Assembly: GCF_014962245.1 (NCBI RefSeq)
Contig: NZ_CP063144.1
Coordinates: forward strand, 424,582 to 488,581
Direction: 5' to 3'
DNA length: 64,000 nt
Source of the DNA: Thermosphaera aggregans
GTDB taxonomy: Archaea > Thermoproteota > Thermoprotei_A > Sulfolobales > Desulfurococcaceae
The notes under the pieces are model-generated. The model worked only from the letters and a program-made list of their open reading frames with translations. It ran no database searches and was not told the DNA's origin. The position numbers and the translations under genes are program-made. This document shows, one piece after another, positions 15,071 to 15,700 of the stretch; the stretch's first letter is position 1, and each line of letters starts with the position of its first letter.

Positions 15071-15079
15071 CTTATATGA
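15071..15079 (+). promoter_or_regulatory. Putative TATA box for tRNA-Trp
   Basis: CTTATATGA lies about 40 nt before the mature tRNA 5' end, compatible with a short 5' leader removed by RNase P. Confidence 0.4.
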
Positions 15080-15115
15080 CTCCTAAAGTTATAATAGAAC
15101 TCGATGACTGGTAGT

Positions 15116-15273
15116 GGGCCCGTAGCTCAGCCAGGCAGAGCGGCGGACGCTGGGGGATGTCTCCAGCGGTCGAAGCTCCAGATCCAGTGCTATGGGTCAG
15201 ACGACCTTTACGGGATGAGATAGATCTGGAGGGAGTGACCCGTAGGTCAGGGGTTCGAATCCCCTCGGGCCCA
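15116..15273 (+). tRNA. tRNA-Trp (CCA) with two introns, at 30/31 and 37/38
   Basis: Acceptor stem GGGCCCG/CGGGCCC with A73, D stem GCTC/GAGC and T arm AGGGG-TTCGAAT-CCCCT are plain. The anticodon arm only forms if two introns are removed. Intron 1 is 15147-15174 (28 nt) at position 30/31: a strict bulge-helix-bulge with central helix CGGC/GTCG, bulges GGA and AAG, and inner helix CGCTGG/CCAGCG. Intron 2 is 15182-15237 (56 nt) at the canonical 37/38: central helix CTCC/GGAG, bulges AGA and TGA, inner helix TCCAG/CTGGA. The product is 74 nt with stem GCGGG/CCCGT and loop CTCCAGA, so anticodon CCA. No CCA tail is encoded. Identity rests on this splicing model. Confidence 0.8.
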
Positions 15274-15286
15274 CTACGATTGAAAA

Positions 15287-15700
15287 TTACTTCTTCTCAA
15301 GCACTCTAACCTTGTAGGCTGCTAAGAGGATGGATACTAGTAGAATGATCAAGGTTATTCTTAAATCAATCCCTGAGAAGGCGATCCATGTGGCGATGAT
15401 GAAGAATAATAATCCGATGAACACCCTGGGTGCGCTGGGCGCGAAGAAGGCTTTTCTCGCAGACTGCTGAGCGTTTCCCACGCCGTAGAACCAAACCGCG
15501 TTAACATAGAGGAAGATTCCCGCGGCTAGCGTGACGCCTTCCCCTCCTGTTACAGCAAGCGTTGAAGCGATTGCTAAAATTATTGACGCGATAAAGACCG
15601 CGAAGTCTCTGAAGCTTGTAGCGATGTTAATTCTCAGAAATGTCAGTATTGCGAACAGCATTGTTGCCGCTAACCCGGTTAGAACGAGGTATTCGCTCAT
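15287..15700 (-). CDS. Small multi-spanning membrane protein, last gene of the SPFH operon
   Basis: Unrecognised 137-aa protein with about five hydrophobic helices (for example DFAVFIASIILAIASTLAVT and FIGLLFFIIATWIAF). A short loop (GNAQQSARKAFFAPSAPR) is basic and probably cytoplasmic. The start is ATG 15700, 15 nt after the stop of the zinc-ribbon gene, so it is probably co-transcribed with the SPFH cluster and may be its membrane component. tRNA-Trp lies just beyond its stop codon on the other strand. Confidence 0.75.
   Translation of the reverse strand: MSEYLVLTGLAATMLFAILTFLRINIATSFRDFAVFIASIILAIASTLAVTGGEGVTLAAGIFLYVNAVWFYGVGNAQQSARKAFFAPSAPRVFIGLLFFIIATWIAFSGIDLRITLIILLVSILLAAYKVRVLEKK

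Follow-up and report, generated by a model that had tools for sequence, protein, structure and literature searches.

A twice-interrupted tRNA-Trp gene of Thermosphaera aggregans with a guide-like second intron, and the several states of its 30/31 site among relatives

The intron of euryarchaeal tRNA-Trp is reportedly of the box C/D type, as Clouet-d'Orval (2001) and Singh (2004) are said to have described. This box C/D intron is reviewed in PMC7994747 and PMC11408192, the latter of which (2024) places the tRNA-Trp guide in Haloferax and other Euryarchaeota. Archaeal tRNA-Trp introns are also spoken of elsewhere (PMC3218864, PMC4090602), in general terms that leave priority for a crenarchaeal guide unclear. 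The tRNA-Trp of Aeropyrum pernix is spliced 31 nt from its 5′ end, which was confirmed by cDNA (PMC4307357), and an intron at position 30/31 of this tRNA is therefore already known. Here we describe a tRNA-Trp(CCA) gene interrupted by two introns, located at positions 15116–15273 of a 64,000-nt stretch of Thermosphaera aggregans DNA (the window; G000:C1:424582-488581), in which all features given below lie on the + strand. It is considered, with a probability of about 0.75, to be a functional single-copy gene whose precursor would be processed in stages and whose second intron is guide-like.

The gene consists of a 31-nt exon 1 (nt 1–30; 15116–15146), a 28-nt intron at position 30/31 (15147–15174), a 7-nt exon 2 of sequence GCTCCAG (nt 31–37; 15175–15181) with the anticodon CCA at 15178–15180, a 56-nt intron at position 37/38 (15182–15237), and a 36-nt exon 3 without an encoded CCA (nt 38–73; 15238–15273). 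Removal of both introns restores a cloverleaf of 74 nt, as it does in all tabulated relatives but two, which are 75 nt long. The same lengths, positions and splice points had been proposed in an initial annotation of the window, and they were upheld when 71 distinct tRNA-Trp genes of relatives were parsed, among which 28 contain both introns, 40 only that at 37/38 and 3 only that at 30/31. The genome searched comprises 1,305,106 bp in one contig and is 99.9% complete. The annotation had warned that simple tRNA finders may overlook or misname the gene, and this was the case: it was reported by neither default ARAGORN nor default Rfam, scored 20.8 bits in a genome-wide Rfam search, which is under the cut-off, and was misnamed tRNA-Gln(CTG) with a single 84-nt intron by ARAGORN with introns allowed. 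A search for another tRNA-Trp, which the annotation had advised, gave no second CCA anticodon loop in the remaining tRNA matches from the whole one-contig genome, so that this is apparently its only tRNA-Trp gene. The genome also encodes two genes of the EndA family (PF01974), consistent with a two-subunit enzyme of the crenarchaeal type, able to cut at non-canonical splice sites, and a fibrillarin (PF01269).

Intron 1 forms a canonical bulge-helix-bulge motif (BHB1), as the annotation had recognized. Its exon side (15138–15146) provides GAG22–24 for the outer helix, which pairs with CUC32–34 (15176–15178), C25GGC28 for the 4-bp central helix, which pairs with GUCG (GTCG, 15169–15172), and the GG of the 5′ bulge; the bulges are GG/A and AA/G, where the slash marks the cut. 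An inner hairpin is formed within the intron by CGCTGG (15148–15153) and CCAGCG (15163–15168). The seven pairs that involve exon nucleotides all form in 31/31 intron-1-bearing relatives; the bulges of these read GG/A or GG/T and NN/G, and pair 26 has undergone a double change, G-C to A-U, in two. The annotation had placed the CTC partner of the D-stem GAG in intron 1; the pairing is genuine, but CTC represents exon nt 32–34, including the wobble base C34. The motif of intron 2 (BHB2) has a central helix of CUCC32–35 with GGAG, the latter located with the TG of the 3′ bulge at 15232–15237. Both of its cut sites, AG/A and UG/A, are present, and the window gene has one additional unpaired G across from its 5′ bulge. 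Both introns conform to archaeal BHB tRNA introns, in which a 4-bp helix separates two 3-nt bulges, intron 2 apart from this extra G.

BHB1 requires nt 22–28 and 32–34, and BHB2 requires nt 27–31 with 39–43 and nt 32–35 with the intron. The two motifs cannot coexist because nt 27, 28 and 32–34 are used by both. Free-energy folding of whole precursors was abandoned, as even for the mature tRNA the nearest-neighbour energies scored an incorrect structure slightly better than the cloverleaf; only constrained comparisons were therefore used, in which the acceptor and T arms were fixed and one BHB was forced in 26 genes. The median cost of forcing BHB1 is 8.4 kcal/mol in the full precursor. For BHB2 the median cost is 19.0 kcal/mol in the presence of intron 1 and 5.8 kcal/mol after its removal, which is an improvement in 26/26 genes. 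BHB1 is favoured over BHB2 in all 26 full precursors, by a median of 10.9 kcal/mol. The shared nucleotides and these comparisons support the order suggested in the initial annotation, in which intron 1 would be spliced before intron 2. Ordered removal had been conceived before, since tRNAscan-SE 2.0 already assumes it and iterates intron removal to allow for one-before-the-other splicing (PMC8450103).

A point overlooked in the annotation is that intron 2 is conserved and guide-like. Its layout is constant among the genes and reads, from the 5′ side, element b (10 nt), 1 nt, NNGA, a short C/G stem with loop, GGGATGA, 4 nt and element a′ (9 nt). In the window gene, element b (CTATGGGTCA, 15190–15199) pairs with the 3′ splice junction TG/ACCCGTAG (15236–15245), and element a′ (GATCTGGAG, 15223–15231) pairs with the 5′ splice junction CTCCAG/ATC (15176–15184). 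Between them lie a box D′-like ACGA (15201–15204), whose GA is kept at the same spacing in most relatives, and a box C′-like GGGATGA (15212–15218), which is present as such in 56/67 genes. Dinucleotide shuffles of the window intron matched b in 5 and a′ in 114 of 20,000 cases. All ten b/b′ pairs form in 62 of 68 genes. Intron position −2 is paired in 65/67 genes through U-A, A-U or C-G, against a mean of 35 in shuffles that take no account of relatedness, and positions +1 to +3 of a/a′ are paired in 66, 63 and 54 of the 67, with many pair types, against 30, 45 and 29 in the same kind of shuffle. Element b also follows changes of the exon, such as ACCCAAAG with CTTTGGGT (L212) and ACCCGCAG with CTGCGGGT (L205), and likewise in L203; the Sulfolobus-type exon is followed too, as ACCCGGTG with CATTGGGT (L056). 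The cassette pattern matches 91 of the 229 genomes of the class, Sulfolobaceae included, nearly always once, and control matches were near zero.

In box C/D RNAs the target is the fifth nucleotide from box D or D′ (the N+5 rule), which when applied here predicts C39 and C34 as the targets. The spacing is exact for nt 39 in most genes, including the window gene; for C34, a UUGA box D with exact N+5 spacing occurs in just 12 relatives and does not occur in the window gene. For euryarchaeal tRNA-Trp, too, C34 and nt 39 are the known positions (PMC7994747, PMC6313347). Judged from the placement of its junction elements, intron 2 can be described as a conserved box C/D-like guide predicted to target C34 and C39. 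The cassette is present in genome G077, which we take to be that of S. acidocaldarius. For S. acidocaldarius, Cm34 was seen in tRNA-Trp (PMC7668247) and a circular tRNA-Trp intron was detected (PMC12558985). Two variants of the intron were observed. In L202–L204 (G043, G065 and G075, family f8), it retains guide b and the C′/D′-like boxes and has lost guide a′ for C34. Within long intron 2 sequences (L036, L039, L037, L040, L057, L058 and L079), the 3′ junction is repeated in identical or nearly identical form, as in AGACCCGTAG, and this repeat could possibly lock guide b in a hairpin and thereby act as a switch.

The C′ (GGGATGA) and D′ (NNGA) boxes are conserved in guide-bearing genes, most of which also contain RTGA in the 5′ leader. 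In the window gene this is part of a conserved GATGA at −13 (15103–15107), a candidate box C. Of the 78 cassette-bearing genes, 65 have RTGA at precisely −12 to −9, and most others have RTGC or RTGG at the same place or a shift by one; RTGA was found there in 0/26 genes without the cassette (Fisher 3.6e-15, uncorrected for phylogeny, with nearly all cassette-less genes from one family). The leaders of the genome's other tRNA genes lack it too. The leader RTGA may supply the box C missing from intron 2, although several cassette-bearing genes do not have it (family f8, Sulfolobaceae L214/L215 and the split genes described below). A box C formed at the junction of a circular intron 2 was considered and dropped, as it was inconsistent among genes. 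By eye, a candidate TATA box (CTTATATG, 15071–15078) is displaced upstream by about 11 nt relative to its place in the window's other four tRNA genes, which suggests that the leader is probably transcribed. The leader strand GTAGT (15111–15115) pairs with A73 and the trailer CTAC (15274–15277), and this pairing covaries by eye among relatives. On the downstream side, GGGCTCCTAA is conserved approximately 15–35 nt after tRNA-Trp in several families (e.g. L028–L030, L036, L054 and L197–L200) and is absent from the window, and the downstream element GGCTCCTAA, conserved in some families, was not found in the window.

We propose that intron 1 folds as a canonical BHB by borrowing the D-stem strand 22–28 and anticodon-loop nt 32–34, and that a splicing endonuclease of the two-subunit type would take it out first. 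The antisense elements around the D′/C′-like motif of intron 2 would pair with both exon-intron junctions of the same precursor and guide, in cis, fibrillarin-dependent 2′-O-methylation of C34 and C39. After or around this methylation, the anticodon arm would refold into BHB2, and intron 2 would be excised. Several observations weigh against this scheme: the window gene has only a degenerate box D in the AGTG/GTGA region, where this box is expected; no recognizable box C exists inside intron 2; the covariation shuffles across the 67 genes ignore how these are related; and the folding energies are only supportive, as they rank a wrong fold above the mature cloverleaf. In addition, BHB1 costs 6.3 kcal/mol after removal of intron 2, similar to the 8.4 kcal/mol before it, so that later cutting of BHB1 is possible. 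This similarity favours removal of the introns in either order or simultaneously, with no obligatory sequence, as would an enzyme that accepts a looser motif. Such free order is nevertheless unlikely given the nucleotides shared between the two motifs and the strong disfavour of BHB2 in 26/26 genes while intron 1 is present; the 37/38 intron is also always removed last in a red alga (PMC3978253).

Another possibility is an ordinary two-intron crenarchaeal tRNA without a guide, in which the pairings of intron 2 protect the junctions or serve the splicing fold. That the intron lacks some of the boxes C, D′, C′ and D agrees with this, a/a′ and b/b′ both cover splice sites and could act as a splicing timer, and a passage in PMC4090602 cites the Haloferax tRNA-Trp intron as dispensable. 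This explanation is judged quite improbable, as it leaves unaccounted the fixed spacing between the box-like motifs and the antisense elements, the exact coincidence of the predicted targets with euryarchaeal C34 and 39, and the Cm34 of a cassette-carrying species. That the locus is a pseudogene, or dispensable owing to another tRNA-Trp, would be in line with its escape from standard finders; with no other CCA tRNA in a nearly complete genome, all paired elements conserved across genera and a promoter-like TATA present, this is very hard to sustain. The staged processing of a functional gene with a guide-like intron 2 is hence preferred.

Within the order, site 30/31 was found in several states among relatives: absence of an intron, a short intron, a 716–749-nt intron bearing a LAGLIDADG frame, and a split gene. 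Among additional genes from family f6, the majority carry intron 1 alone and two are intronless. Intron 1 is gained or lost even among close relatives, as in genus g6, where it is present in a single species and missing from the others examined. In genus g15 it is 749 nt (L050, G016) and 716 nt (L047, G024) long, where published archaeal tRNA introns are 11–129 nt (PMC3218864), and it encodes a LAGLIDADG_3 protein (PF14528, E 1.7e-15). The frame is open in both copies, which differ with a pN/pS of 0.24, indicating purifying selection on the protein. Within the class, a search for relatives of this homing endonuclease gene gave only the two g15 tRNA-Trp introns and two weak matches.

The tRNA-Trp gene is split exactly at 30/31 in G137, G138 and G139 (genus g50) and in G127 (g48), with the halves on different contigs (L197+L217, L198+L218, L199+L219 and L200+L220, respectively). 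The 5′ half ends in a GC-rich tail and the 3′ half carries the complementary tail, the BHB1 helix GCCG with GTCG, GCTCCAG, a guide-bearing intron 2 of 88–117 nt and the 3′ exon; the numbers of contiguous pairs between the tails are 14, 15, 7 (with a one-nucleotide interruption) and 14. These four genomes, two of which are only 55–77% complete, gave no contiguous tRNA-Trp gene, and the near full-length matches to which ARAGORN could assign a name in them were Ile, His, Arg, Lys and Gln. With distant halves, complementary tails, a BHB junction and no intact gene found, the four genes show the hallmarks of split tRNAs, and the halves would presumably be joined by trans-splicing. A split tRNA-Asp(GUC) with adjacent halves on opposite strands was also noticed by eye outside the window, at G000:C1 ~15,490–15,700 (L147); its arrangement is that reported for Thermosphaera aggregans in PMC3218864.

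As a tentative reading, 30/31 may be an active remodelling site of tRNA-Trp in this archaeal order, at which a LAGLIDADG homing intron invades, decays to short introns like the 28 nt of the window gene, is lost in sister species and is opened into trans-spliced halves in one clade, while the guide intron, with its candidate leader box C, would keep methylating C34 and C39. The comparative series around the window gene is more interesting than the gene itself: with one tRNA site intronless, short-introned, endonuclease-bearing and split within one clade, the origin of tRNA introns and split tRNA genes becomes directly testable. The gene would also bring crenarchaea, with a reduced layout, into the range of the cis-acting guide for tRNA-Trp methylation. 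It provides a further example of an intron whose removal would have to precede formation of both the guide target and the second splice motif. New here are the conserved guide-like intron 2 that covaries with its junctions, the leader RTGA and the several states of site 30/31.

In comparison with known systems, intron 1 agrees with that of Aeropyrum pernix in its tRNA, its 30/31 site and its BHB splicing, whereas the A. pernix-like gene L049 has intron 1 only and lacks the second intron and guide cassette of the window gene. The four split genes share GC-rich complementary tails and a BHB junction with the split tRNAs of Nanoarchaeum, Caldivirga, Staphylothermus and Thermosphaera; tRNA-Trp is absent from the lists of split tRNAs in PMC3218864 and PMC4390854, and split tRNA-Lys(CUU) is likewise joined at 30/31. 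Crenarchaeal multi-intron tRNA genes (Sugahara 2007/2008; PMC8450103) similarly contain two close BHB introns of which one must go first, but the second intron of the window gene additionally carries conserved guide elements. These resemble the euryarchaeal box C/D intron in the 37/38 site, the two antisense elements across both junctions and the predicted targets C34 and 39, and differ in that only D′/C′-like boxes are clear, box D being degenerate and box C missing from the intron, with a perhaps substitute place in the 5′ leader. The window gene is a new member of two known kinds, the multi-intron crenarchaeal tRNA and the tRNA-Trp guide intron, in a reduced combination that, as far as the literature searched shows, older tRNA-intron tabulations aside, had not been described.
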